NCBI GenBank assembly: GCA_002179805.1
Contig: NAVB01001333.1
Location: 1-15,687, forward strand
Source of the DNA: Acanthamoeba lenticulata
Taxonomy: Eukaryota > Discosea > Longamoebia > Acanthamoebidae
Direction of reading: 5' to 3'
DNA length: 15,687 nt
The notes under the pieces are model-generated. The model did no database searches, was not told where the DNA came from, and worked only from the letters and a program-made list of their open reading frames with translations. This document shows positions 1 through 15,687 of this stretch, in pieces (the stretch's first letter is position 1; each line of letters opens with the position of its first letter). The position numbers and the translations under genes were made by a program.

Positions 1-406
1 CATTTTTGGCTCCTGGCGCACGAGGTGCGTGAAGGCGACCAAGGAGTGCATGAGCTGTCGACGCGAGCCGACCTGGCGCCACAGGCCCGCGCCATTGAGC
101 TTCTCAGCACTGTCCCTCGCTGATCACCGGTGACCGCCTTGTGGCTGATGGTCCGCGTCGTCGTGCAGACTGTCCTGTGCGTGCGGCCACCACCTGCAGT
201 GCGCGCGGATCCTGCGCACGGAGAAGGCCCTTGGTGGGACCGATCCGGCCAACTTCGACTACGCCGCCTTGCAGCTGTTTCCGCTGGTTCTGCCGCTCTA
301 TCGGATGACGAAGAAGAGTGGTAGAGATCGCTCGTTGGTCACACTTGTCACTACGGTGACGTTCATCGCTAACACAACGACAACGGCGGCGGGAAGCACG
401 AGGTGA
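1..406 (+). other. Coding-like sequence, possible 3' end of a gene entering from the left (unresolved)
   Basis: Two stretches read like protein but lie in different frames. Frame 1 is open from the left edge to a TGA at 121-123 and ends ...AIELLSTVPR. Frame 2 is open from 149 to a TGA at 404-406 and contains CGHHLQCARILRTEK followed by FDYAALQLFPLVLPLYRMTK. A plausible intron would run from the GTGCGT donor near 26 to the CAG at about 171, and would join the first bases to the second stretch in frame. I do not recognise the family. The paired Cys and His residues could hint at a metal site, but there are too few to name one. It could equally be a decayed gene copy. Confidence 0.3.
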
Positions 407-945
407 AGCCCTGACGCGTTCGTGTTCATGGAACAGAGGAGATCGAGCTCATGGAGGCTCAGCAGCGCATGTGATCAACCTACAACAACTCGAGTACAAC
501 CGGAAGTCAAGTGAGCAGGCGCACTACAGGTCTCTGGTGCTTATGGACCGTTCTACGCAGCACGATTGCGCCGGCCTCCGAATACCTTGCACCCTCCCCT
601 TCTGCCCCAGTGCTTCCAGCTCGCCCGCTCACTCCGGCCGCCAGTACACGAAAATTGAGCTGAAATCATGGCGAGTATGAAGCTGTAAAAAAAGAGCAGA
701 TCACGACACACTAAGGGATAAGAGCTGTGGTTGAATCATGGCGTTTGTTTGAAAGAATACAAAGTTTCACTCGGCAGAGAGCCAGGTCTCCTTGTGTAGG
801 TTGTAGTTTTCATGTTTGGCCTTGTCTGTAAGCTTGCCCTTGCTAACGCTGCCGGGCTCCAGCTGGTCCATCACCTGACTCGCGCTCTGCTCCCATCAGC
901 GCAACACAGAAAGTGAATATTTCGGTCCAATCAAAGCATGCCGCC
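407..945. other. Intergenic region with no supported gene
   Basis: I see no convincing coding sequence, RNA gene or repeat here. The 69-codon open frame at 471-680 has no recognisable composition or motif. The stretch lies beyond the 3' end of the minus-strand receptor gene and probably holds its 3' untranslated region and that of whatever gene enters from the left. No clear AATAAA was seen on the minus strand just after the stop codon. Confidence 0.5.
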
Positions 946-3900
946 CTATGGGGATGTGACGTGACTCACCAGGTGTCCGTTGGTTGTGATGCGCATCACA
1001 GTATTGCGCATGGTTTGGAGCCGCCTCGACCTTCTCCTGCGCGCCAGCGCTGTCACGGCGCTGGCCACCGTGACGCCGGCAATGAGCGCAACACCGCCAA
1101 TCACTCCGCCAATCACAAGCAGAGTGGTGTTGCTGTCCACGCCATTGGCCTTGTTGGACTGAGAACTGCCGGTGCCCATCAGCGCGCCCAGATTGAGCAA
1201 CGGATCGTAGAAGAGCGAGCTCGTGAAGTTGGGCAGCCTCAGCTCGAGCACATACTCGGGCGATGCCGACAGTGGCTCGGCAAGGCGCATGTTGTGTATC
1301 AGTGGTAGCTCCACGCCATCGGCCACGGCCATATCCCACACCTCAATGAGCGCCATGAGCTGTGATGGTATAGTGCTGGCGCCAACAGCAACACCGGAGA
1401 CAAAGGGGACGTAGTAGGTGGTCATCTGGTCCTGTGGCACGCCGCGACGCACTGTAATGCCTTGCGCCGGATTGGCCACGCTTGAGGTACTCACCATAGC
1501 CTCGGACAGCCGATAGCGCACTGTCAGTGGCCCCGCGGCAGAGCTGCTGCCACTGAGGTTGAGAGACCACTTGAGTGTGCTGGCACCGATGCTGAAGCCA
1601 TGGCCAGCGAACTGGCCCACGGCTGCCTGGTCGAAGAAGGTGAACGACTGGTTGAGCTGCATGAGTGGGTTGTTGGCCGCGTCGGTGATGGTCTGTGTGT
1701 AGATGGTCGATCCGCCACCAACCTGGATTTTGGACGCTGCGCCCCGCCATCACCTCAGCCCAATTATTGCATTGATCGCGAAGCGCCGGAGTGACGCACG
1801 AGGCTGGCCAATTTAGGTACCGGCAACGGTGAACGGAGTGCCAGAGCCCAGCTGCAGGTCTTGTTGTGATATGGAGACCACACTCTGTGCTTCTGAATGA
1901 ACAGTAAGCCCTTCTCCAATAGAGAGAGAGAGAGAGAGAGCAATTGAGGAGGAGTGCGAAGGGTGATTGATACGTACCATTGTTGTTGTTGTTGTTAGAT
2001 CCCACACCCTCGACAGTGAGGTTGAGGCTGGACTCCGCATCATTGCTTCTGAATGTAACGGTGATAGGAACAATCGACGGTGCAGGCGATGACGACACTG
2101 TTGGCGTGCTGGTGCTGGAAGAGGTTGGAGAGATCGAAGAAGAGGGCAAAAGGGAAGGCGTAGGAGAGAAGGAACGTGTTGGTGAAGAGGTTGGCGATGA
2201 CGTTGGGGTAGGTGATAGGGAAACCGACTCCGTCGCCGAGATTGAAGGAGATGGTGATGGCGTTGACGTTGGTGAGGAGGTGGATGAAGAGGGTGGTGAG
2301 ATCAAAGAGGAGGGCGAGGGCGTAGGCGAGAAGGAGAATGATGGTGAAGCAGTTGGCGACGACGTCGGGGTAGGCGAAGCGGTTGGGGATGTTGATGTTG
2401 AAGGGGAGGAAGACGGAGACGGAGAAGGACCGGTGTTAGGGCAAGCTGACGAGACAGAGCGCGACCGAGATCATCAACATCAGAACAACTAATGAGAGAT
2501 TGAATGAAGCGAGCGCGGACGTACTGAGGCCAATGGCGCCTGCCTGAGTGTTGATTGATAGTGGTCCCGTTGAGTCCCATAGCCAAGTACCGCACGACAC
2601 ACCTGGGTCGCGCCAGACAGTGTGAGCTGACACCCAAGCGTGTTTGTAGTCAGCTTGCTAATGCAGCTTTACCGATGCCGGTGGGTCCCGAGACGGCCAG
2701 GCTGAACGCTCCAGTTTGGTTCCACCACCCACTGGAACTAGCAGAGGCAAAAACACCTGCCGCCGTGAACGCCTTCCCCTGATCAGCCACTCTTTGGCTC
2801 GTCGAACAAGAAGCAACATACCGTAGGTTGACGAGGCATTGAGAGACAGCGTCGCGCTGCCACTCTGAAGCCATGCCACGTTTACACCCATCACATCGAC
2901 GCCTGGGCAAGACAAAGCGTCAGCGCCGTGAAGTCATGCCAAAAGCCCCAAGAGGCGGTAGCGCGATCAGTTGATGAGATGAGATGGTTTGTGGTGGGTA
3001 CCAATGCCAGACGTCGACTGATCATCAAGGGACAAGCCTAGGTTGCCGATTTGGTTCCAGGTAGAGTTGGAACGTAACCTCACCATCGAGATCCCTGGCG
3101 ACTGCCGCGCCGTGATGTACAGGTCTCCGTTCTGGTTCCAAGTGAAGTTGGCGCTGTAAGGCGCCATGCCTGTGCGGCCGGCCGAGTAAAGAGAATGGGA
3201 AAGGGGTGAGATGGATTGAACCTCAACATGACTTTTGTGATTGGACGTACCGCCGGCAGAGCATGCAGTGAGGTCCATTGTCATTGTATTGTTCTGATCC
3301 CACCGAGAATGCGCCCCATTGATACATCCTAACGCTGTGTACGCACCTGGGGCGTTGTTTACAGTTATTTGCGCGACGCCGTTCTGGTACCAGGCGCTCC
3401 GATGGATCACTACTGCTCCGTTGGTGGCGTTGGTGGTGACGATAGACAGCGGCCCGTTCTGAAACCAGGTGCTTCCAAAGAGGGCCTTGACTGTGCACAT
3501 ACAAAGGAGTCTTTAGTCCAGCAGTCATTCTGAAAGGCATGACCATTGTCTCTCTCTCTCTCTCTCTCTTAAGCCCCGTACCCACTGTCACAGAGGCTTC
3601 ATCTGGACTCACAAAGTTGGCGACGAGCGCTCCACTCTGCAACCAAGTGCTGTTGGTGATCGTGATGACTGAGGAGGGACAGCGGGGGTAAGATCAAGAG
3701 TTGGCAGCCAAGCGAACCAGGAGTCTGGGCGTACCGCAGTAACCATCCACCACCAACGAGCCTGTTTGATTCCAAAAACTGAGCTCCTGCATGTCAGCTG
3801 CCACAGCACCTACCTCAGCCAACAAGGCGACCAACAGACGAGAAGAGTCTCAATCACGCTGCTCGTACCAGAGGACTTTACGGTCAGGCTGCCGTTGATG

Positions 3901-4634
3901 TAGACGGAACCGACCGTCGTCAGTAGCCCGCCTTTGGCCAGGACCGGCACTACCGAGTCAGAGATGTTGAGGCTGCCGTATTGCGTGATGTCCGCCCCCT
4001 TGGCAATGTTGAGGCCTTTGCAACGCAGGTCAGCCTCTCACAGCACATATCACGATACTCTCGTATTGTTGTTTTGGGTGGGGGGCAGAGATCTTACCGC
4101 CGCCGATCATGGTCAGGCTGCCGTTGATGACAAAGCCCGGAGCCTGCACGACCAGGCTCGGGAAAACTGAGGTCTGCCATTGCACTGTACCATTGAGACT
4201 GCAGTTGCACACGAACGGACGGCCCACAAAGTCCGGGGTTAGGCCGACAAGGGGCATCAATTACGCTGGCTTTGGTGGGGAGGTCTTACAAGAGCACCAC
4301 GTTGGCAACATTCACCGTAGCGCCGACGCCACCGTCATCGTAGTTGCCGGAGCTCACCTCTACCGTGGTGTCTGCATTCACGCTCGCTAGGGCGGTGGTT
4401 ATCTGAGTGTAGTCGCAGCCGGTCGGACACACAGTAGTCACTGCCAAGCAACACACGGAGGAGAGTGAGGGGAGGTAAGTCGAGCTGATCTGAAGATGTG
4501 GTGGGAGACGATGAAGCGGTACCGGCAGACGATGCGCCCACCAGGCAGAGAACCAACAACAGCACAGCTGTCCTGACAACGAGGACTAACTGGGAGATGC
4601 AACGTTCCTTAGGAGGTGTGTGCCACCTCAACAT
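946..4634 (-). CDS. Type I membrane protein with W-x-Q-x-G beta-helix-like repeats and Ser/Pro/Thr stalk (14 exons, 880 aa)
   Basis: Spliced model on the minus strand, exons 4634-4523, 4440-4290, 4198-4098, 4015-3869, 3797-3735, 3668-3582, 3490-3251, 3169-3002, 2902-2822, 2756-2673, 2602-2525, 2445-1978, 1892-1821, 1736-946. They sum to 2643 nt, in frame throughout, and every intron is GT-AG. Residues 1-37 are a signal peptide (hydrophobic core, ASSA cleavage site). CPTGCDYTQITTAL then DTTVEVSSGNY resembles the N-terminal cap of right-handed beta-helix (pectin-lyase-like) domains. Ten W-x-Q-x-G-x-L-x-I type coils follow (about residues 171-437), many carrying N-x-S/T sites. Residues 438-593 hold the Ser/Pro/Thr-rich, mucin-like stalk. 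A second ectodomain of unknown fold leads to a GxxxG-rich membrane span at 821-848, then RRRRSRR and a short cytosolic tail. Probable role is a surface receptor, adhesin or coat protein; the ligand is unknown. Exon 6's donor (3613 or 3582) and exon 13's acceptor (1892 or 1910) are the least certain joints. Confidence 0.8.
1921..1940. repeat. (AG)10 dinucleotide repeat in intron 12 of the receptor gene
   Basis: Ten perfect AG units on the plus strand. On the coding (minus) strand this is (CT)10, directly before the candidate 3' splice sites of intron 12, so it can act as the polypyrimidine tract. Confidence 0.95.
2130..2400 (-). repeat. Diverged tandem duplication inside the Ser/Pro/Thr stalk
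   Basis: Two related blocks of roughly 105 nt begin near 2130 and 2298, about 165 nt apart. They share gagatc[g/a]aaga, gttggcga[t/c]gacgt[t/c]ggggtagg and the sequence between. In protein terms (minus strand) both encode SPTPTSSPT followed by FSFSPTPS or RSFSPTPS and an SSSTS tail. The offset is 168 nt at one end and 162 nt at the other, so a 6-nt indel separates the copies. The stalk therefore grew by internal duplication. Confidence 0.7.
3549..3569. repeat. (TC)n dinucleotide repeat in intron 6 of the receptor gene
   Basis: An almost perfect run of TC on the plus strand. It reads as GA on the coding strand, in the first part of intron 6, so unlike the intron 12 tract it does not supply pyrimidines. 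Confidence 0.9.
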
Positions 4635-4692
4635 CTGGCCCAGCAGCTCGGTGGCTTCTGATACTCAAGCCACAACGGTCTGTTCTTTACTG

Positions 4693-4711
4693 CTCTCTCT
4701 CTCTCTCTCTC
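4693..4711. repeat. (CT)n tract just upstream of the receptor start codon
   Basis: A CT run (purine GA on the receptor's coding strand) about 60 nt upstream of the ATG at 4634. It would fall in the 5' untranslated region or core promoter. A promoter role is not shown. Confidence 0.85.
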
Positions 4712-4853
4712 AACTGCCGTTGTCCTTTGCTTCTCTTTCCGTATCACCCAGGATCTTTTTATGGGTTGTTTGAAAAAGAAGAAATAGCTTGTGCGGAAGC
4801 CCAATTCAAACGGACGAGAGGTTCCTCAGGAGCTTGCTGTTGTTCGTGATTGA

Positions 4854-5060
4854 CTTGACCACTCATGGATCGACCAGGGGTTGACCAACAAGCACCCGGC
4901 CGGCGCCCTCTTCAGCACCATGAGCATCGTGGAGAGCTTCCTAAGGCTCATTGCAAGTCCGCAGAGGAAGGAGGCCCCTCGTCTTGAGCTCCATGAAGGA
5001 AAGGAGGTGGACAAAAAGAGAAAGAGGCCCATCATGCTCGGGTGTAGAGTGACTGGCTAA
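4854..5060 (+). other. Coding-like fragment, possible 3' exon or gene remnant
   Basis: Open from just after a TGA at 4851-4853 to a TAA at 5058-5060. It contains LTNKHPAGALFSTMSIVESF and a basic run KEVDKKRKRP near the end. The preceding adjacent frame (about 4790-4880) reads TDERFLRSLLLFVIDLTTHG, and a frameshift or very short intron would join the two. An ATG at 4920 would give only 46 residues. No family is recognised. It may be a decayed gene, a terminal exon whose start I could not find, or chance. Confidence 0.3.
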
Positions 5061-5189
5061 GCACGAGGCATTCACATGAAACGCATCGGATGCGTTCCTT
5101 CAGTGCAGGAAGTGACGCGCCGGCTCCTCACCGGTATCGTCATCGTCTCCTACCTACCTGGCCCTTGCTGGTGTTGATGACGATGGAAA

Positions 5190-5220
5190 TATTGTAATTG
5201 TAATTGTAATTTAATTAAAA
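5190..5220 (+). promoter_or_regulatory. AT-rich block with three tandem ATTGTA hexamers upstream of the phosphatase gene
   Basis: Three consecutive ATTGTA units followed by TTTAATTAAAA end about 30 nt before the phosphatase ATG. The base composition contrasts sharply with the GC-rich surroundings, as expected of a core promoter or 5' untranslated region. The regulatory role is inferred from position only. Confidence 0.4.
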
Positions 5221-5248
5221 GAAAAAAGTGAACAAAAAGGTGAACACA

Positions 5249-5878
5249 ATGTGCGGAAACTACAAGTTGAGCTCCGACTCTTGTGGCGTGATGGAGAAGG
5301 CACGACCTGTGTGCGGCCGCTTTCCCCAGAGCCCCTTCTGCGGCTGCACCATCCCGTGCCGCGTCGCCATGCGGGAGGTGCAGCTCTACCGAGTCTTGCC
5401 GGGCCTCTTCCTTGGGCCGCTTCAAGCAGCCTACAAGGTACGTACAAGCAAGGGGAGAGAAATGGCAAGTGGCTGATCGATCGGCATGCCAAAGGTAGAC
5501 GAGATGCGAGAGCAGGGCATTACGCACGTCCTCGACCTCGCCGACCAACCCTACACCAAACATACTGACCAGTTCAAGTACCTGAGCATTGAAATCGCGG
5601 ACAGGGAAACAGAGGTTCTCGCTAAACATTTCGAGAAGACGAACGCCTTCATCAAGGAGGCCATCGCGGGAGGTGGCGCAGTCCTCGTCCATTGCGATGC
5701 CTGCGTATCGCGATCGCCGAGCGTAGTCATAGCGTATCTTCTTTACGCCCAACACTTTCAAGATTTTGATGCAGCTCTCGCCAGCGTGCAGGCCGTGCGC
5801 GATCGCGCGAAGCCAAATGCTGGATTTGTGCGACAACTTCGCGAGTACCAGGCCGCACTTGCTGGGCGAGTCGACTGA
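5249..5878 (+). CDS. Dual-specificity protein phosphatase (2 exons, 190 aa)
   Basis: Exons 5249-5437 and 5495-5878, with a 57-nt phase-0 intron (GTACGT...AAAG). The enzyme should remove phosphate from Ser/Thr and Tyr residues through a cysteinyl-phosphate intermediate. The fold is recognisable from LYRVLPGLFLGPLQAAY near residue 47, GITHVLDLAD near 71, the general-acid loop SIEIAD (Asp99) and the P-loop HCDACVSRS, with catalytic Cys130 and Arg136. The usual P-loop Gly is replaced by Cys133. The region before the domain is rich in cysteine (positions 2, 12, 22, 31, 33, 37), and no signal peptide is seen, so a cytosolic enzyme is likely. The first ATG of the frame was chosen; later ones at residues 15 and 41 would remove part or all of the Cys-rich arm. 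The substrate is unknown. A small atypical DUSP is the best label. Confidence 0.88.
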
Positions 5879-5970
5879 TCGTCGCTGAAAAAGAAAAGTG
5901 CCCAAAAAATCTTGTCCACAAAATTTCAAACTGCTCCGAGCTATTACGTAAAGCAATAAGAAAGGTGAAG

Positions 5971-6986
5971 ATGAATACGAACATGGAGGGCGCGTATCCT
6001 GCGGTCGCCTACCAGCAAATTCAGAATCAACACGCCGAAAAGAAAGATGATTCCTCTGCGCAACAAGATGAGGAGACCGTCTTCATGACCCACACCCCTG
6101 AGAATAGTGCGATTATCAACAACTCCACCAAGTGGGTCTTCTGCCTTCTTATCATCCAGATCGTACAAGACGCTCAACTTTTGCATCACTTCATCATTTT
6201 TTTTCGTTTTCATCACTCATCACTTTCTCTCTCGCAGCTCATCTCCATTCCTTACTGGGGACCAGGCGCTTTCGGTACCTTCTTCCCGTATGTCAACCTC
6301 TTCATGGCCGTTGTTGGTTGGATTGGCGTCCGCAGCCAGAACCTTGGGCTGATTGTGGCTGTACGCTTTCCTCCTTTCCTCCTCGAGGTCCTTCTGGCTG
6401 CATGCTGACTCTTTGCTTCGTGTAGCACTTCCTGTACTCGATGATGTGCCTGTTTGGCCTTGTCATGCTCTGCTCCATGGCTGTGTTCTACGTCGGCGGT
6501 GTCGACCTGTTGTGGCTGGCGGGCTTTGTCTGCTTCATCTTGGCGCTGAGCTTCTTCCTGCGCAAGCAGAGGCTGCTCATCCAGGCCCTCAATGCCACCA
6601 AGGGTACGCCTTTACGCCTCCCTCCTCCCCGTTCTTCTGTAGCTCATTTGATGCTCTTGTTTGCTGTTGTTGCGCCCTTTTCCGTAGTCCCTGTGGCCGA
6701 TGACGTGGAGGACCCCATGCTGGTGGAGCTGTCCATGACGCCTGTGGAAGCTCCCGCCTCGGCGCCTTTGGCCTGTGAGCAGCAGCAGCAGCAGCAGGCC
6801 GCCTGTGCTGCCCCCAACTTTGGGGCCTTTGCCTACCCGCCGGCGCCCTTCTACGCGCAGGACCCCGCGCAGCCGGTCCCCGTGCTCGTCCAGACCGAGC
6901 AGGGCACCCATCAAGTGGTCTACATGTACCCCGTCATGCCCAATCCGCAGCAGCTTGCGCCCGCTTATGAGCAACAACAGCAGTAA
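5971..6986 (+). CDS. Four-span membrane protein with Gln/Pro-rich tail (4 exons, 263 aa)
   Basis: Exons 5971-6162, 6238-6360, 6426-6603 and 6688-6986, joined in frame by GT-AG introns of 75, 65 and 84 nt (donors GTACAA, GTACGC, GTACGC). About 54 polar N-terminal residues precede four predicted membrane helices at roughly 55-72, 80-96, 106-127 and 131-150. A basic FLRKQR stop follows, then a cytosolic-type tail rich in Gln, Pro, Ala and Tyr with a polyglutamine run coded by CAG repeats at 6779-6796. The even number of spans puts both ends on the same side of the membrane. The layout recalls four-span trafficking and scaffold proteins, but I see no NPF repeats, tetraspanin CCG or other family signature, so function is unassigned. 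The gene starts 92 nt after the phosphatase stop. The TAA overlaps a GTAAGT donor-like site (see findings). Confidence 0.82.
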
Positions 6987-7446
6987 GTCAGCAGGTCCGA
7001 CACCATGACCCCTGGCCCTTTCCTGCAGCTGGTCCGCCACTTGCGTGCATGAATGCACGCATTCCTCCCCAAATGAAAGGCACATGGGGGTGCGTTTAAG
7101 ACACCCACACAACACCAGTCGTCCTTCCTTATCCGAGTTTTTTGGTGTCTATCTTGGCGATCACACATTATGTGTTGTGGCCAATCGCTGGAAGTGTGTT
7201 CCAGCTCATCTACAGATTGGTGAAACTTTAATTGGTGCCGCCAATCCTGGCAAGGTGTCATGATGTCGTTTTGTGGTCGCTGCATGGACTAGAAAAGCAT
7301 CTCGGCTTCTTCAGTTGTTCTTCCAGCCACACACCAGCCAGCACCAGACACTCTCCCACAGTCTCACTCTAGTATCAACCAGTAGCGTCTTCAAAGGACT
7401 GAAGTACTACAACACACGGAGCCCGCGAGCGCCAGCGAACGTAAGG
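6987..7446. other. Intergenic region, no confident gene
   Basis: It separates the four-span protein from the MBP-like receptor on the same strand. It contains a perfect palindrome (7042-7061) and several short inverted repeats, including CTGGAA/TTCCAG near 7190-7206 and ATTGG/CCAAT near 7231-7247. The C-rich, CA-rich stretch from about 7320 to 7446 resembles a 5' untranslated leader. A 72-codon frame (7045-7263) could be an alternative last exon of the upstream gene. Confidence 0.5.
7042..7061. repeat. Perfect inverted repeat TGCGTGCAT / ATGCACGCA
   Basis: Nine-base arms (7042-7050 and 7053-7061) flank a GA spacer. The near-zero loop favours a dimeric protein site over an RNA hairpin. It lies about 55 nt after the four-span protein's stop codon and about 385 nt before the receptor ATG. 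Confidence 0.85.
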
Positions 7447-9889
7447 ATGTCGACGCCGAGACTGACCATCGTTGCCATACTGGTCATTGCGCTCTTGGCC
7501 CTGTGTCTCGTGAAAACCACTGATGGCACATGCTACGTCGTACGGCTTCGCCCCCCATAGTAAAGGCTCATCATCTGGGTTTGTATTTATTTTAAGTTGA
7601 TGACAACCAACCAGACTGGAGGCCCCGCCCAGCCGGATCCTTGGTGTTCTCCCCCAGATTACCCACGTTGCCTGCGTACGTTCTTGTTGTGGTGTTATGT
7701 TCTCTGCCCGCTCGCACTCAGTGACCCCCTCCCTCGCAGCCTCGTTCGGGTACTCGGCCTCCCCACTCCCGTCTGGCGAGACCTACATGAGTTTCTATTC
7801 GTGGATTCTTGATGTGCTTGGTACGAGATGATAATTATTGCCAAAATTGCGCGGATTTATATATCCGAATATTAAGGATTAATTCGGAATATTGTTTTTC
7901 TTGTTTTATTTTTAACCTGGACCACCGTTCACATCACAACTTGTAGGCACCGACAATGTGAGTGTCCAGAAACGCTACATCGACACCGCCACGACCAACC
8001 CCAACATCTTCTTCGCTCCAAACCAAACGGGCTGCTACGTCAACCTGACCTTCGTGTACGAGGTGGCGTCGTTTCGGAGTAAGATGGGCATCTTCACGTT
8101 CCCCAAGAACAACGTGCCCACAACCGTCTCCGACATTCCGGACAGCTCGCTCAAGCTGCTCTTCAACGAGACGTCGGTGGACTGCAAGCTCACCCAATCC
8201 GGCGACTCGTGCCTCTCGCCCGGCTCGACGCACCTGCTCGGGCCCTACACGAGCGCCGACGCGGTCGGGTTCTTCTTGGACCGCAACCTCATCTGCAAGG
8301 ACAATCCCCAGACGTTCTACTCGATCGACTCCCTGAACACCAAGCAGACGACCAAGCGGCTCCTGGCCGTACTGCGCGACCCCAACACCAGGCGCGTCTA
8401 CGTCAGCTGGGAGGACGCGCCCGACGGCACAAACAAGCTCGACTACAACGACAACATGTACTCGATCACCTCCAACTGCACGCTCGACTACACCAAGATC
8501 CCGTGCGCCAACGTCACCTCCTGCCGCAACCGGAACCAGACCCTCGACACCGAACAATGCACGTGCATCTGCGCCAACCAGGCGAGTACGACCTGCCTGA
8601 CGACGACGCGCCACTATTACAACACGGACACCTGCTCCTGCGCGTGCCGCAAGCCGACGTCGTGCCCCTCGCCCCAGTTCTGGAACGCCACCTCGTGTCA
8701 GTGTGAGTGCCCGATCCGCGGAACGTGCACAGCCCCCAACTTCAAGTGGAACGCCACGCTGGCCGGCTGCGGCTGCAAGTGCCCGCCGACCGCGCTCGAG
8801 GCCACCGGAGCCGAGTGCCCCAACAGCTTCTACAAGTGGAACCCCGACGGGAGCTGCACTTGCGTGTGCCCCACGAGCGAGCCGGCCGGCGCACAGTGCG
8901 CGGCCAAGGGCCTCGGCAACCTGAAGTGGAACTCGAAGACGTGCGGCTGCACGTGCCCGACGAGCGGCACCTGCAAGGTGGCCAACCAGAAGTGGAACGC
9001 AAGCAACAGCGCCGACGTGTGCGGCTGCCAGTGCCCTGCCACGCCCGAGCTCGCCGGGACGTCGTGTCCGGGCAACCGCAAGTGGAACAGCTCGCGCGAG
9101 ACGTGCGCGTGCTATTGCCCGGCCGAAGCCCCGGCCGACAGCCCGTGCACTGGCAACTTTGTCTGGAACTCGACCCTGAGCGAGTGCGATTGCTACTGCC
9201 CGCTGACCCCGCCCGACGGCAAGTGCCCGGGCGTCCAGGTCTGGAACCGTGATTTCTGCCAGTGCATGTGCCCGACCGACGACCCGTGCTTTAAGAAGAG
9301 CACGCAGTGCAAGCAGTTCCAGTGCAGCGAGCAGACGGGCCAGTGCCAGCTCGTCTACGAGGACGTCTGCGCCACGCAGAAGCTACAGTTCAACACGACC
9401 GGCTGCCTGGCGTGGCTCTGCGACGACAGCCTGGGCTGCGTGCGCCAGGCCACCAACTCGTGCTGCACCAACTACACGGACTGCGCGTCGTGCGCGCTCG
9501 TGGACGGCTGTGATTGGCTCAACGGCGCCTACTGCGATGTCTCGGGCCAGGTTCTCACGTCGCCCCTCGACAAGCCGGACCACCCGAACTGCAACCCGAG
9601 CACGGGCCTCTCGGCCGGCCAGACGGCGGGCATCACCGTCGGCATCGTGGCCGGCGTCAGCGTCGGCGTCGGCGGCGCCGCCGCGCTGCTGGCCGCCGGG
9701 TACATCGCCTACCGCCTCCTCAACAGGCCGCCCATTCCGGACCAGCTGCCCACCATCGAGAACCTCGACGCCGAGACCGGGACGGGTGACAACCCGCTCT
9801 TCCACGGCAATCAGGTCGAGATGACCAACCCCATGTTCGCCGGCAGTGGTGGGGCCGCTCCCGTCCCATCCGATCTCCACACTCTCTGA
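7447..9889 (+). CDS. Mannose-binding-protein-like surface receptor with DUF4114-like and CXCXC repeats (4 exons, 731 aa)
   Basis: Exons 7447-7539, 7597-7675, 7740-7820 and 7947-9889, all GT-AG and in frame. Residues 1-27 are a signal peptide. About residues 178-260 match the DUF4114 pattern: VGFFLDRN, the Leu-Asn of DSLNT, and VSWEDAPDG with LDYNDNMYSI. Residues 289-526 carry ten CXCXC motifs (CTCIC, CSCAC, CQCEC, CGCKC, CTCVC, CGCTC, CGCQC, CACYC, CDCYC, CQCMC), most preceded by a conserved Trp-Asn. Two CTDC-like Cys modules and a PSI-like module (CCTNYTDCASC...) follow. A GxxxG-rich membrane span lies at about 645-675, then a 56-residue tail with NPLF (700-703) and NPMF (712-715). This is the architecture described for the Acanthamoeba MBP, a mannose-binding adhesin. 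It is somewhat shorter than the published 833 aa and has fewer CXCXC motifs, so a paralogue or relative is likely. Mannose binding is inferred. Confidence 0.88.
7852..7887 (+). repeat. Two adjacent short hairpins in intron 3 of the MBP-like gene
   Basis: CGGAT (7852-7856) pairs with ATCCG (7863-7867), and CCGAAT (7865-7870) pairs with ATTCGG (7882-7887). The two share CCG, so the folds are mutually exclusive. They sit in the longest (126 nt) and most AT-rich intron of the gene. Confidence 0.6.
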
Positions 9890-10038: not shown

Positions 10039-11371
10039 CTAGCAAGCCTCATCGGGGTTGAGCACCTTGCCCAAGAACAGTGGGCACATTAAGCGCGTGT
10101 GGTAAAGCACAAACACAAACGGCCTGTTGACCACAAATTTCTTTGGCAGGCAATTTGTTTGCATCCTCATCGCAGATGCAGCTGAAGCTTCTGTGCCCTC
10201 TTCGTTGACCTCGACACAAGCCTTGTGGTACACCTGGCCAACGAAAAGACCCCTTGCAGGACAACACCACAACGTTTTGTTCATCAGTCAGCTGTCAGTC
10301 GGAGTACTGCAGCAAGGTGGGCGTACTCGGTAGGCGAGTCTGGAGCGACCATGCCTCGAAAGTCGGCAGTGGTGAACTTGAAGGGCTCGGTCACACCCAT
10401 GTCCTTGAGCACCTGTGACAGCTCGACCTCAAACTCAAACTTGAACCGCGGCAGCTCAATGTTGACCTTTTTTTTGCGGAGAGACTGGTGTTGTTCGACG
10501 ACCTGTTTAAGGTTGCTCTCTGCCACGAGCTGCTCGTCAACATGTCACCAACATGTTGTCGAGCGCAGACTACAATTGTCAGTAGCCAGCAGCAGTAGGA
10601 CGAGAGGGGGTCGAAGGAACGAACCGATTCGAGAGCGGCGGATGAGTTCTCATGTGGCAGAAGCACGAGCATGACGATATCTATGTCCTTGTAGGGCAAC
10701 TCTACCATGGCGTGGCTGTTGAACGAGGCGTAGCCGACCTCGAACTCCTGTTGCATCATGCGGACGCGTTTAGTGGCGGAGCCGCCGAGAAGGTGGAAGT
10801 CCTTGTCGCTCGTGCACTCTTCCTCGAAGGGTTCCTGCCAGGCGCCCTTGAAGTGGATGGCGTTGGTGAGCACCAATGGGGTGTTTGTTTTGAGCGAGCC
10901 TGAAGGCAGGAGGTTCTTAATCTTGTTCTTGGTCTTCTGATCGACCCACGCGTTGATGGTGTGGCGCGCTGCCTCGGTCTGGTCAAAGTCGACAGTGCGC
11001 GCCTCGGCCAGCAGCGCTTGCGTGCGGATCGCAAAGTGGGGGTCAAGCTTGAAGCGGTCGGCCACCCACAGGGCGTTGGCCACCGACAGTGAGGCGCCGG
11101 AGACCAGTGAGGCCATGTCGTAGCGCATCTCCTCGTCGTCAGAGTCAGCTTGGTAGCCGATGGCCGTCTTCAGCTGGGCCGCCGAGTCTCCGCTGGCGCC
11201 CTGGAGCACGAGGGCCAGCGCGGAGGCCACACTGAAGGGCGACACGAACACATTGGCGTCCACAGAAGCTGTCGCGGCAGCACGCCTGAAGAGGGCCGCA
11301 CAAAACGCCACGCCAAGCTTACCAGCTCGCTGCGCAGCGGCGTAGTCAACTTGGCTAGCGGTACCGTCCAT
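10039..11371 (-). CDS. Serpin-family protease inhibitor (3 exons, 387 aa)
   Basis: Exons 11371-10625, 10529-10308 and 10233-10039, all joined in phase 0. Serpin landmarks appear in order: NVFVSPFSVASALALVLQGA, VANALWVADRF, NAWVDQKTKNKIKNLLP, LTNAIHFKGAWQEPF, MVELPYKDIDIVMLVLLP, VNIELPRFKFEFEVELSQVL, TADFRGM, VYHKACVEVNEEGTEASAAS and NRPFVFVLYH...CPLFLGKVLNP. The total length is normal. The hinge EEGTEASAASA fits the inhibitory consensus (Gly at P15, Thr at P14, small residues P12-P9). Counting from the hinge and back from NRPF agree on Asn at P1 and Cys at P1'. No signal peptide is seen with the start chosen (ACAATAATGG context), so an intracellular serpin is likely. The frame stays open upstream, so a longer N-terminus cannot be excluded. 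The first donor (GTTCGT) is unusual, but splicing to the CAG at 10530 restores the family spacing exactly. Confidence 0.9.
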
Positions 11372-12315: not shown

Positions 12316-15300
12316 TCAGTTTCCGAGACCCAGGATGGCCTTGAGCTCGGAGAAGCGCCCGATCGGGAGCGCCTTTGTGAGCACGTCGGCCGGCATGTAC
12401 TCGGTCGGGCAGTAGCGAAGTAGAAGGTGCCCAAGAGCGATGGAGTCGCGTAGATGGGCCAGCTTGATGTCGTAATGCTTCATCCTCGCGTGGAAAGCGT
12501 GGATGGGCTGGTTGGCGAGGTGAAGTGCGCTCTGATTGTCGTTGTGCAGGCGCATTGTCACGTCGCCGAAGCCGAGCTGCTGCATCAGGCGTCTCACGTA
12601 GAGAGCCTGCTTGGCGCCCTCAGAGAGAGAGGTCAGCTCTGCCTCCGTTGAAGACAGAGCAACGGTAGTCTGGCCGCGTGCCAGCCACATGATCGGTCCG
12701 CCGCCGAACATGAAGACGTAACCGGTGACAGACTTTCGGTCGATCACGTTGCCGCCCCAGTCGGCGTCAGAGTAGCCGACGGGAACGTGGAGTGGCTGGC
12801 GCTGGTTGTAGACAGAGAATCTGTCATGTCTGCGCCCGTAGGTGATCATCAGGTCGCGCGTCCCGTTGAGATAGCGTAGGACACGCTTGACAGCACTCCA
12901 GTGGACGTTGTCGAAGGCATCCACATGGCGGCTGAGCACATGGACGGCGAAGGCAATGTCTGGTCTGGAGGCGAGCGCCAGGTAGAGAAGAGAGCCGACG
13001 GCTTGTCTGTAAGGGATGTCCTTACAGGTCTCGGGGGTTCGCTCCAGCTTGGAGAGAACGAGGCCATGGACCATCGGCGTCGGTGCAGGCTTGGAGTCGT
13101 TCATGTTGAACTTCTCCAGGATGTTGTTGATGTGGCCTCGCTGACGAAGCTGGATGGTGTGGGCGCCCCTGTCGCGCAGCACTTCGACGCCGAGGATGGA
13201 GCTCGCAACACCCAAATCCTTGGTCTGGATCTTGGCCGAGAGCTCTTTCTTGACTTGGTCGACGCGGGCGCGCGAGCCGATCAGAAGGCAGTCGTCAACG
13301 TAGACGGACACAATCGTCGGCAGGCGGTCGCCCTGTGTGCGCCTGATGTAGATACAGGGATCTGCTTCGAGCGGCACGAAGTTGAGGGCCTTCATGTGAG
13401 CGTCGAAGGCGCGGTTCCAGAGCAGAGGCGCCTGCTTGAGCCCGTAAAGGCTCTTCTTCAGCAGGCACACGTAGTCAGGGTGCTCACGTGAGGTGAACCC
13501 CTCTGGCTGCGTGATGTAGATCTGGCCATCGATGTCGGCCTGGAGGAAGGCCGAGTCGACGTCGATCTGATCCACCTCGAGATCGTAGATGGTCGCAAGG
13601 CTGAGCAGCATGCGCAGGTTCTCAAGGCGAACGACTGGTGCGAATGTCTCGTCGTAGTCGATGCCGTGCTTCTGCGCGTAGCCCTTGGCAACAAGGCGCG
13701 CCTTGAACCGCTCGATGGACCCATCGGCGCGTTGCTTGATCTTGAAGACCCAGCGCGTGCCGACGGCCTTGCGGTGAGGCGGCAAAGGTACAAGAGTGTA
13801 GGTCTTGTTGCGCAGGAGGGCGTTGTGCTCATCCTCCATGGCCTTGCGCCAGCGTGCGGCGTGCTGAGAGGCGATGGCCTCCTTGAAGTTGCGCGGGGTG
13901 ATGTCTGTGAGCTGCTCTGACAGATGTAGATCGTCGTAGCGTTCTGCTGGACGCCCCTTGGTGGAGCGCGTGGATCGCCTGATTGGCTGTGCAGACGGTG
14001 TAGGAGGAGGAGGAGGAGGAGCAGAGGGAGGCTGCTTGCCTCTGCCTGTCCTCTTCGCGTAGCGCTTCGGGCGAGGGTCAATGGTGGAGGTGGCGTCAGC
14101 AGAGGATTCTGCAGACGATGATGAGGTTGAAGGTGACGACCTGTCAATCGCCCCTTCATCTTCAGCGTCATCATTGTCATCCTCATCATACCCGACAAGA
14201 TCGGGCATGAAAGGAGACGCTGGCTCACTGTCTTCGAATGTCTCATCGAGACCAGGAAGGCGAGATTCGTCCAGAGCGGCGCCGGCGCCCCTCAAGACTG
14301 GCTCGTCGAGGTCGTGCTGAGTAGGTCCGGGATCGTCGTCGTCACTGTCTGAGAGGTGCTCCACACGAGTGGCATCAACCTTGGTCGGGAGGAAGATGAC
14401 GTTGCGGGACACGGTGACGGTGCGCGAGGAGGGGACCCAGAGCCGATAGATGTTGGTGTTGGCTTGAGTGCCAAGGTAGACGGCCTCGGTCGATCTGGAG
14501 GCCAGCTTGTCCAGCTTCTGCTCACCCTGCTTGAGGAGGAAGCAGTGCGCTCCGAAGGGATGGAAGATGCCAAGATGTGGCTTCTTCCCAGACGTCACTT
14601 GGACTGGCGACAGGAAGCCTGGATTGGCGCGGGTAGGCAGCCGGTTGTTGATGTCAACAGCGTGCTTGATCGCCTCAGCCCAGAAGGCTTTGGCCATGCC
14701 GGCGGCGATCAGCATGGTGCGCGCCATCTCGACGATGGTACGGTTGTACCGCTCTGCCACGCCATTGTACTGTGGCGTGTAGGGAGGCGCTGGCTGGAAG
14801 ATGACGCTGATGGAGCGAAGGTAGTCTTCAAACTCCTTGCTGCAGTACTCGCCGCCATTGTCTGAGCGTAGGGTCCGGATCTGAGCACCGTCTGGCACGA
14901 CTGTGTTGACCAGCAGCTTGAACATGCAGAGGACCTCGCTCTTCTTTCTGATGAAGAAGACGACGGCGAAGCGGGAGAAGTCATCGATGAAGGAGACGAA
15001 ATATCGTTTCCCTCTAAACGACTCCTTGGGGAACGGGCCGCACACATCAGTGTGCACGAGCTCCCACGGTCGAGTGGTGCGTTGCGCTGGTCCCTTTCCG
15101 ACAGGCACGCGGTGATGCTTGCCTTGGATACAGGCAACACATGGGCTGAGCGAGGTTGTGCGATCAAGCTCAATGTCAGCAGCGTTGGCCGCTGCCTTGA
15201 TGAGGCGATCCTTGCTGGCGTGGCCGAGCTGTCGATGTAGTTCGTCGTAGGAGACCAGGGTCTTGGCACGGCGAGTGGGCAGGGATGGATTCCCGCCAAT

Positions 15301-15687
15301 GGTGGGCACGCTTGACGTGCTGGTCCCGCGCTCAGCCTTGGCAGGCTGAGACTTAGGTGCTGCAAGAGCAGCTAAGACTGAATGCTTGCTGCCGTTGGTC
15401 TCGTGGCAGAGCGTGTGCGCGTTGCTGGCGGACTGTCCCAGCCTGACAACGTTGCTGACTGGGAGCGTCTCCAGTGGCACGATGAGGAGGCCGGCTTGTT
15501 GTAGAATCTCGAAGACAGGCTTCGTCGAGTGACGGTGGCGGACCTCACAGCCGCCGTCGACGAGGGTGATGATGAAGCCGTTGCAGAGGAGACTGTTGGG
15601 TGAAAGAATGTTCGCCCTGAGCGCTGGCACGTAGCCAACGTTGGAAAGGACGATGTTGATGAGCCGGCCGTCGGTTCGAGTGAAGGC
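12316..15687 (-). CDS. Ty1/copia retrotransposon Pol polyprotein (5' partial, 1123 aa in window)
   Basis: One uninterrupted frame from the right edge to a TGA at 12318-12316. It starts in the C-terminal part of the protease (VPALRANILSPNSLL). Next come the GAG-pre-integrase zinc finger (HRQLGH...CVACIQGK), the integrase core with HTDVCGP, LRSDNGGEY and GVAERYNR supplying Asp, Asp and Glu, and a copia-type C-terminal domain (AVYLG...NVIF). An acidic, low-complexity linker ends in RRSTRSTKG. Reverse transcriptase follows (RWRKAMEDE, RFKARLVAKGYAQ, IDVDSAFLQADIDGQIYI, SLYGLKQAP, YVDD), then RNase H (YSDADWGG, SSTEAELTSL, HNDNQSAL, KHYDIKLAHL, ADVLTKALP). The integrase-before-RT order marks Ty1/copia rather than gypsy. 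No stop or frameshift is seen and the catalytic residues are present, so the copy is young and possibly mobile. Gag and the 5' LTR are beyond the window. Confidence 0.95.
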   Translation of the reverse strand, partial: AFTRTDGRLINIVLSNVGYVPALRANILSPNSLLCNGFIITLVDGGCEVRHRHSTKPVFEILQQAGLLIVPLETLPVSNVVRLGQSASNAHTLCHETNGSKHSVLAALAAPKSQPAKAERGTSTSSVPTIGGNPSLPTRRAKTLVSYDELHRQLGHASKDRLIKAAANAADIELDRTTSLSPCVACIQGKHHRVPVGKGPAQRTTRPWELVHTDVCGPFPKESFRGKRYFVSFIDDFSRFAVVFFIRKKSEVLCMFKLLVNTVVPDGAQIRTLRSDNGGEYCSKEFEDYLRSISVIFQPAPPYTPQYNGVAERYNRTIVEMARTMLIAAGMAKAFWAEAIKHAVDINNRLPTRANPGFLSPVQVTSGKKPHLGIFHPFGAHCFLLKQGEQKLDKLASRSTEAVYLGTQANTNIYRLWVPSSRTVTVSRNVIFLPTKVDATRVEHLSDSDDDDPGPTQHDLDEPVLRGAGAALDESRLPGLDETFEDSEPASPFMPDLVGYDEDDNDDAEDEGAIDRSSPSTSSSSAESSADATSTIDPRPKRYAKRTGRGKQPPSAPPPPPPTPSAQPIRRSTRSTKGRPAERYDDLHLSEQLTDITPRNFKEAIASQHAARWRKAMEDEHNALLRNKTYTLVPLPPHRKAVGTRWVFKIKQRADGSIERFKARLVAKGYAQKHGIDYDETFAPVVRLENLRMLLSLATIYDLEVDQIDVDSAFLQADIDGQIYITQPEGFTSREHPDYVCLLKKSLYGLKQAPLLWNRAFDAHMKALNFVPLEADPCIYIRRTQGDRLPTIVSVYVDDCLLIGSRARVDQVKKELSAKIQTKDLGVASSILGVEVLRDRGAHTIQLRQRGHINNILEKFNMNDSKPAPTPMVHGLVLSKLERTPETCKDIPYRQAVGSLLYLALASRPDIAFAVHVLSRHVDAFDNVHWSAVKRVLRYLNGTRDLMITYGRRHDRFSVYNQRQPLHVPVGYSDADWGGNVIDRKSVTGYVFMFGGGPIMWLARGQTTVALSSTEAELTSLSEGAKQALYVRRLMQQLGFGDVTMRLHNDNQSALHLANQPIHAFHARMKHYDIKLAHLRDSIALGHLLLRYCPTEYMPADVLTKALPIGRFSELKAILGLGN

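Follow-up and report, generated by a model that had tools for sequence, protein, structure and literature searches.

The stretch of Acanthamoeba lenticulata DNA analysed here (15,687 nt, contig NAVB01001333.1; hereafter the window) carries on its minus strand, at 4634..946, a gene for a protein built of repeated coils, most of them with the pattern W-x-Q. The gene has 14 exons and 13 introns, all GT-AG and 65-99 nt long, and its spliced frame encodes 880 amino acids (aa) with no internal stop and one terminal stop. Exons were placed manually, guided by reading frame and splice consensus, and are listed below, together with those of C814 (locus L014), a diverged paralog whose exons were also set by hand.

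E1, 4523..4634, minus: start codon and hydrophobic N-terminal segment, a probable signal peptide (spliced model; hydropathy maximum 2.75 at aa 16).
E2, 4290..4440, minus: N-terminal cap VCPTGCDYTQITTAL... (spliced model; cap also in other loci of the genome).
E3, 4098..4198, minus: early coil without W-x-Q, entered through the sole phase-2 intron (101 nt in C814 too).
E4, 3869..4015, minus: early coils QYGSLNI and VYINGSLTV (spliced model; C814 counterpart 141 nt).
E5, 3735..3797, minus: coil 1, WNQTGSLVV (spliced model; 63 nt in C814 too).
E6, 3582..3668, minus: coil 2, WLQSGALVA (spliced model).
E7, 3251..3490, minus: coils 3-5, WFQNGPLSI, WYQNGVAQI and WDQNNTMTM (C814 has four single-coil exons instead).
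E8, 3002..3169, minus: coils 6-7, WNQNGDLYI and WNQIGNLGL (C814 counterpart 159 nt, two coils).
E9, 2822..2902, minus: coil 8, WLQSGSATL (spliced model; C814 counterpart 84 nt).
E10, 2673..2756, minus: coil 9, WNQTGAFSL (spliced model; 84 nt in C814 too).
E11, 2525..2602, minus: coil 10, WDSTGPLSI, in which Q is absent (spliced model; 78 nt in C814 too).
E12, 1978..2445, minus: stalk rich in Ser/Pro/Thr, 71% S+P+T (spliced model and composition).
E13, 1821..1892, minus: start of the membrane-proximal domain (spliced model; similar stretch in C814).
E14, 946..1736, minus: membrane-proximal domain, modelled with low confidence as all-beta, then a transmembrane segment and a basic tail (module at about 100 genome places).

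Twelve of the 13 introns are phase 1, intron 2 being the sole phase-2 intron; the probability of at least 12 in 13 is 5e-5 at a control rate of 14/38 and 3e-4 at a rate of 105/248 (controls described below). E4-E13 form ten consecutive symmetric exons, i.e. of multiple-of-three length with phase-1 introns on both sides, and therefore any single one of them could be removed with the frame unchanged. A preliminary description of this DNA had proposed exons of 63, 87, 240, 168, 81, 84 and 78 nt at 3797-2525 (E5-E11), 12 phase-1 introns in 13 and frame-neutral coil exons, all of which the spliced 880-codon open model reproduces. It had also matched exons to coils, and this too holds: the seven exons carry 1, 1, 3, 2, 1, 1 and 1 coils, and the first W lies 9-12 residues past each exon start, so that exon and repeat boundaries coincide. 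The coil tryptophans stand at aa 179, 200, 229, 254, 284, 311, 338, 367, 395 and 420, with spacings of 21, 29, 25, 30, 27, 27, 29, 28 and 25 residues. The ten W coils are thus present as described, but the single motif said to unite them was overstated, since as written it fits 6/10 and misses WLQSGALVA, WDQNNTMTM, WNQIGNLGL and WDSTGPLSI. A relaxed W-x-Q pattern matches 9/10 coils, whereas shuffling the ectodomain 5000 times gave a mean of 0.003 matches and a maximum of 1. As a separate observation, intron 7 (window 3170-3250, minus) is 81 nt long, stop-free and in frame, and its retention would lengthen the protein by 27 residues, placed between coil 5 and coil 6.

Outside the coils, the protein has hydropathy maxima near both ends (aa 16-34 and aa 821-839), in agreement with the earlier proposal of a membrane-anchored ectodomain, and a 156-residue segment that is 71% Ser+Pro+Thr sits between coils and anchor. 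The ectodomain contains 12 N-glycosylation sequons, compared with 6.6 +/- 2.3 after shuffling (42/2000 shuffles reach 12). The window protein is most likely an adhesin or a recognition receptor, held on a stalk at the cell surface.

The gene is real. A gene finder trained on it, and hence partly circular as a check, recovered E1-E11 at the strictest intron penalty and missed E12, while looser penalties led it to split E7 and E8. Further support for the hand-set exons comes from C814, which keeps the phases and the length of four exons (101, 63, 84 and 78 nt).

Two profilin genes of the assembly have the Acanthamoeba profilins 1f2k and 1prq as their nearest PDB entries, with 11 differences each over 125 residues, which fits an Acanthamoeba host. 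Relatives of the gene were searched for in the whole genome (48.5 Mb, 1825 contigs). A strict DNA motif for the coil gave 112 matches, against 14 for its backward control, 29 for the codon-order-reversed pattern and 19 for the reversed pattern's own backward control; judged by these controls, maybe 14-29 of the 112 are due to chance. The 100 matches listed out of the 112 fall into 74 clusters on 68 contigs, and 21 clusters have at least two matches. In gene-finder models, ten further loci (or pairs of loci) have a cap with W coils behind it, the exons being mostly phase 1. Loci found with E2-E4 or with the coils usually show the same layout: signal peptide, phase-1 intron, cap, phase-2 intron and then coil exons with mostly phase-1 introns. 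Its sequence relatives show the window gene to belong to a multigene family. Eight near-identical locus pairs, probably alleles, gave a pooled ratio of nonsynonymous to synonymous polymorphism (pN/pS) of 0.37, with individual pairs at 0.15-0.74 and some locus models taking in neighbouring genes.

The phase bias extends to the family. In 17 paralogous loci, which include one probable allelic pair (L059/L061), 64 of the 80 introns adjoining coil exons were phase 1, 8 phase 0 and 8 phase 2, with splice scoring limited to intronic positions. Control models showed phase-1 shares of 1/10, 14/38 (10 models) and 105/248 (80 models, anchor loci added); these models were predicted on either strand, their quality is often doubtful, and one (L012, minus) has coil-like motifs. 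The excess is significant against the larger two sets (Fisher p of 7e-6 vs 14/38 and 3e-9 vs 105/248). The register of coil and exon recurs as well: in 36 of 58 internal coil exons, the window's included, the first W lies 6.7-11.7 residues past the exon start, and by an expression requiring Q 47/58 hold one coil, 10 two and 1 three. Loci L008 and L009 have, downstream of their W coils, a frame containing HELGHNMGLAH, which we take to be a metalloprotease-like motif; this frame may belong to the same gene or to a neighbour.

C814 allows a comparison exon by exon. Its E3, E5, E10 and E11 have the same length as in the window gene and its E4, E8 and E9 are within 3-9 nt, while the place of E7 (240 nt, three coils) is taken by four hand-set exons of 81, 75, 84 and 78 nt with one coil each; the number of repeat exons therefore differs between family members. 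For E6, C814 showed no equivalent exon with clear splice sites. Six corresponding coils are 37-56% identical between the two genes. For non-corresponding coils the mean is 28% (maximum 46%), and for coils compared inside the window gene it is 29% (maximum 48%). Since coils of one gene are no more alike than non-corresponding coils of the two, the duplications must be old, and position-specific coils predate the split of the genes. Judged from this pair, what has changed after the split is coil number and exon partition. The idea that the ectodomain grew by exon duplication thus stands for old duplications and for the difference from C814, but with coils about 29% identical there is no recent event in the window gene.

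The anchor has a wider distribution. Searching the genome with E14 gave 125 matches at E<=1, and the 110 at E<=1e-3 correspond to 104 places on 75 contigs, haplotypes being counted twice. Thirteen of the 74 coil clusters have a same-strand anchor within 7.5 kb downstream (14 pairs), compared with 4 pairs upstream; in two of these four, the anchor is also the downstream anchor of an adjoining coil cluster. The majority of coil clusters have no anchor in reach, and these either use a different anchor, as in L010, or have one that was missed. Conversely, among the 12 anchor models listed, from 28 anchor loci analysed, six have other ectodomains (L024, L032, L035, L036, L041 and L044). Several of these alternative ectodomains on the shared transmembrane anchor begin with CGEL, and they represent a second family. 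AlphaFold, run on four anchor sequences, returned a low-confidence all-beta domain followed by one long helix (predicted local distance difference test, pLDDT, of 52). Anchor relatives in public contigs amount to three proteins with 41-56% identity, and scans of viral contigs with E7 and with the anchor gave no match.

Taken together, these data point to a family of stalked surface proteins with phase-1 coil exons, a shared anchor and a role in recognition, a reading to which we give a probability of roughly 0.6. Coil exons in the family are mostly symmetric and in phase 1, each holding one or a few fused coils. Such symmetry lets coils be gained, lost or swapped with the frame intact, and the ectodomain is joined through another phase-1 intron to an anchor module common to other ectodomains. 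Gene structure, family, phase bias, the difference in coil number between paralogs and the shared anchor are evident from sequence; the beta-helix fold, the surface location and the role are inferred. The exposed coil faces would set the specificity of recognition, directed at bacterial prey or at surface or wall glycans. Acanthamoeba eats and hosts many bacteria and hosts giant viruses, and to our knowledge few of its recognition receptors have been described.

For the coils themselves, a right-handed beta-helix is the probable fold on sequence features. Right-handed parallel beta-helices have coils of roughly 22-29 residues, and the spacing of 21-30 residues found here suits them. A pattern of C, C, Y/T/I and A-L, which may be a beta-helix-like N-terminal cap, recurs in 11 aligned caps from loci with coils behind. 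The likely assignment also rests on an alternating hydrophobic pattern, seen by eye, and on sub-threshold matches to PF14262 in L055 (E 7.6e-5, 22.6 bits, cut-off 25.8) and L010 (E 0.0046). Reversed L055, L010 and window sequences had no PF14262 match, and this family is the only sub-threshold Pfam match that stands out from chance. That PF14262 is a beta-helix is consistent with the parts of PMC8746771 consulted. The beta-helix suggested in the preliminary description is therefore favoured by coil length and by PF14262 in two paralogs, but its structural test was unusable and no family scored above its cut-off.

Several observations weigh against this picture. Of the 15 ectodomains scanned, whole or as fragments (14 loci when the pair L063/L066 counts as one), 13 have no PF14262 match, the window's among them; the window protein has no curated beta-helix family above cut-off (Pfam, 0 families), and eight further ectodomains scanned against Pfam had no convincing one. 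Weak matches to NosD (0.11) and pectinesterase (0.16) in L064 and to DUF1565 (0.049) in a fragment of L068 count little, because unrelated families match as well in the same scans (ELFV_dehydrog, 0.019 in L014; PUD, 0.19 in L054). AlphaFold of a five-coil frame, read through intron 7 and given no alignment, was unusable (pLDDT 33.6). Among introns beside coil exons in the paralogs, 16/80 are not phase 1; the gene finder behind these counts favours coil motifs, its splice model derives from the window gene, and it recovered only some of the hand-set exons of C814. Lastly, a second copy of the window gene looks broken. Contig C208 matches window 1-8120 in six pieces of 89-98% identity, in the same order in the stretch compared, and we take it as the second haplotype. 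Its copy of the gene lacks window 3319-3588 (270 bp: the end of E6, intron 6 and most of E7), and the fused frame hits a stop. About 3 kb are inserted between the counterparts of window 1950 and 1996, near the end of the Ser/Pro stalk (L013:5676-8653), with frames that by eye resemble a Ty1/copia-type element. Comparison of the two alleles (E1-E11, E13 and E14; E12 left out) gave 3 synonymous against 12 nonsynonymous changes, with no sign of constraint. Given this broken copy and these changes, the window gene may be dispensable.

One could go further and regard the window copy as a decaying relic without present function, in a family that is itself real. The deletion, which shifts the frame, the copia-type insertion and the allele differences all fit this account. 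Yet the window allele is open across 14 exons with GT-AG introns, the six corresponding coils retain 37-56% identity to C814, and the defects of C208 are possibly assembly errors, so that decay of the window copy strikes us as unlikely.

A similar standing, i.e. unlikely but with real points in its favour, belongs to the proposal that the coils fold instead as a different solenoid or as an array of beta-sandwiches (leucine-rich repeat (LRR)-like, a left-handed helix or tandem small domains). The coil model is of too low confidence to exclude such folds, no relative was found in the PDB by sequence, and a beta-helix family match is missing in most scanned ectodomains. Against them stand the coil length of 21-30, the alternating hydrophobic pattern, the cap motif and the PF14262 match of L055.

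The likewise improbable third alternative is a structural protein, a wall-associated beta-helix of the cyst wall or glycocalyx that would bind cellulose or another polysaccharide and take no part in prey recognition. The sole suggestive Pfam match, sub-threshold and in two paralogs, is after all to a carbohydrate-binding family, and cyst-wall lectins with Ser/Pro-rich spacers have been published for Acanthamoeba (PMC6541295, in part). However, the window protein has a hydrophobic segment with a basic tail at its C-terminal end, neither CBM49 nor any other Pfam family was found in it, and an anchor that recurs at about 100 places, in part under different ectodomains, would better suit a receptor repertoire. 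Finally, that the gene structure is an over-reading of chance open frames is barely credible: the exons are short and hand-set, and without a motif bonus the gene finder finds only E11 among the C814 coil exons, but C814 keeps exon lengths and phases, the motif is in excess genome-wide and pN/pS in family pairs is 0.37.

The coil-built family has few relatives in public data. Pfam returned 0 families for the 880-aa window protein and NCBIfam 0 for its ectodomain, and PDB searches by sequence gave implausible matches and no coil relative. Against 5.8 billion public genome and metagenome proteins, the coils (region 38-437 of the 880-aa protein, and an 18-row three-coil alignment) had no match at E<=10, although the search with the protein was weak, as candidates were limited to 0.55-1.75x the query length and only 7996 were scored. 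The statement that the repeat belongs to no named family is thus upheld in Pfam (window protein), NCBIfam (ectodomain), public proteins and the PDB by sequence. The one bacterial match (L073, 33 residues long) was dismissed as chance; the single open frame of at least 60 aa that it overlaps has 372 aa and looks enzyme-like by eye. In titles and abstract openings of the papers listed on Acanthamoeba beta-helices, pectin lyases and exon shuffling, the coil family is not described; this search lay outside subscription journals and AmoebaDB, where a relative may already be annotated.

Membership in the Jonah, or choice-of-anchor A (CAA), lectins was also considered and rejected: with 0 Pfam or NCBIfam families in the ectodomain no CAA domain was found, a model for which is presumably contained in these databases. 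As far as PMC6541295 was consulted, Jonah lectins resemble the window protein in genus, in being extracellular and in the Ser/Pro-rich spacers of one form; they differ in that the window ectodomain is without any Pfam or NCBIfam family. The same separation applies to the Cthe_2159 carbohydrate-binding family PF14262, which two paralogs match below the curated cut-off and the window protein does not match. In its proposed architecture, the protein resembles Awp1-type adhesins of Candida glabrata, surface proteins in which a beta domain comes after a beta-helix domain; in a related protein, O-glycosylated repeats flank the region (sections of PMC8746771). These are fungal wall proteins with solved structures, and the likeness is architectural, with no sequence relation shown. 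The A. castellanii genome paper (PMC4053784) reports predicted adhesins, compared here by description only, and relatives under another name could be among them; the terms "beta-helix" and "pectin" are absent from its main text.

A coil-per-exon layout is known mainly from LRR receptors. In brown algal ROCO genes each LRR has a phase-2 exon of 72 bp to itself, and the exons are shuffled and alternatively spliced (passages of PMC11378527; Zambounis 2012 and Teng 2023 cited there), and both these and the NB-ARC-TPR genes of brown algae resemble the Acanthamoeba gene in having solenoid repeats in separate symmetric exons, with recognition proposed to vary by shuffling or splicing (PMC11378527). 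They differ in the repeat, a 23-residue LRR in 72-bp phase-2 exons, and in being ROC-COR GTPases (ROCO; PMC11378527), whereas the Acanthamoeba gene has W-x-Q coils of about 27 residues, 63-87 nt phase-1 exons and a predicted signal peptide and transmembrane segment. In Tetrahymena, LRR exons of 90 bp, flanked by phase-2 introns, number in the tens of thousands and make up a big family with tandem exons of one repeat length, an extreme single-phase bias and growth by exon gain (excerpts of PMC6564038); the Acanthamoeba family shares this plan, yet its exon lengths vary, its phase is 1 and it is far smaller. The window gene falls outside the LRR-exon class of brown algae and Tetrahymena, which has fixed lengths and phase 2, as its introns are phase 1, its single-coil exons measure 63-87 nt and Pfam gave no LRR match. 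Given these precedents, the gene organisation is known in kind; what is new relative to the sources searched is the repeat, its intron phase and an extracellular architecture on an anchor.

With more hesitation than for the reading as a stalked recognition family, we suggest that Acanthamoeba might have an evolving repertoire of surface receptors built by exon assembly. Phase-1 beta-helix rungs would be added, lost or exchanged, perhaps also alternatively spliced, and ectodomains swapped onto a common anchor, giving an independent counterpart of the LRR receptors of brown algae and Tetrahymena that could discriminate prey, symbionts and self. The cap-plus-coil family and an anchor at about 100 places are a defined, testable candidate receptor repertoire. 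They carry the one-repeat-per-exon principle, so far one of LRR and TPR genes, to a further repeat, a different intron phase and a separate branch of eukaryotes, and the family offers natural material on the rung-by-rung growth of solenoid proteins.

Further features were noted in the remainder of the window. A dual-specificity phosphatase lies at 5486-5875 on the plus strand (Pfam E 1.3e-27) and a serpin gene at 10394-11368 on the minus strand (Pfam E 9.9e-59). At 12316-15687, on the minus strand, a Ty1/copia polyprotein frame (RVT_2, integrase core and retroviral SH3-like) runs off the contig end. The neighbour gene at 7916-9889, on the plus strand, has a sub-threshold DUF4114 match and, by eye, Cys-rich repeats in which WN recurs, one hydrophobic segment, and NPLF and NPMF motifs in the tail; in L010, a coil ectodomain is followed by a Cys-rich stretch similar to this gene.
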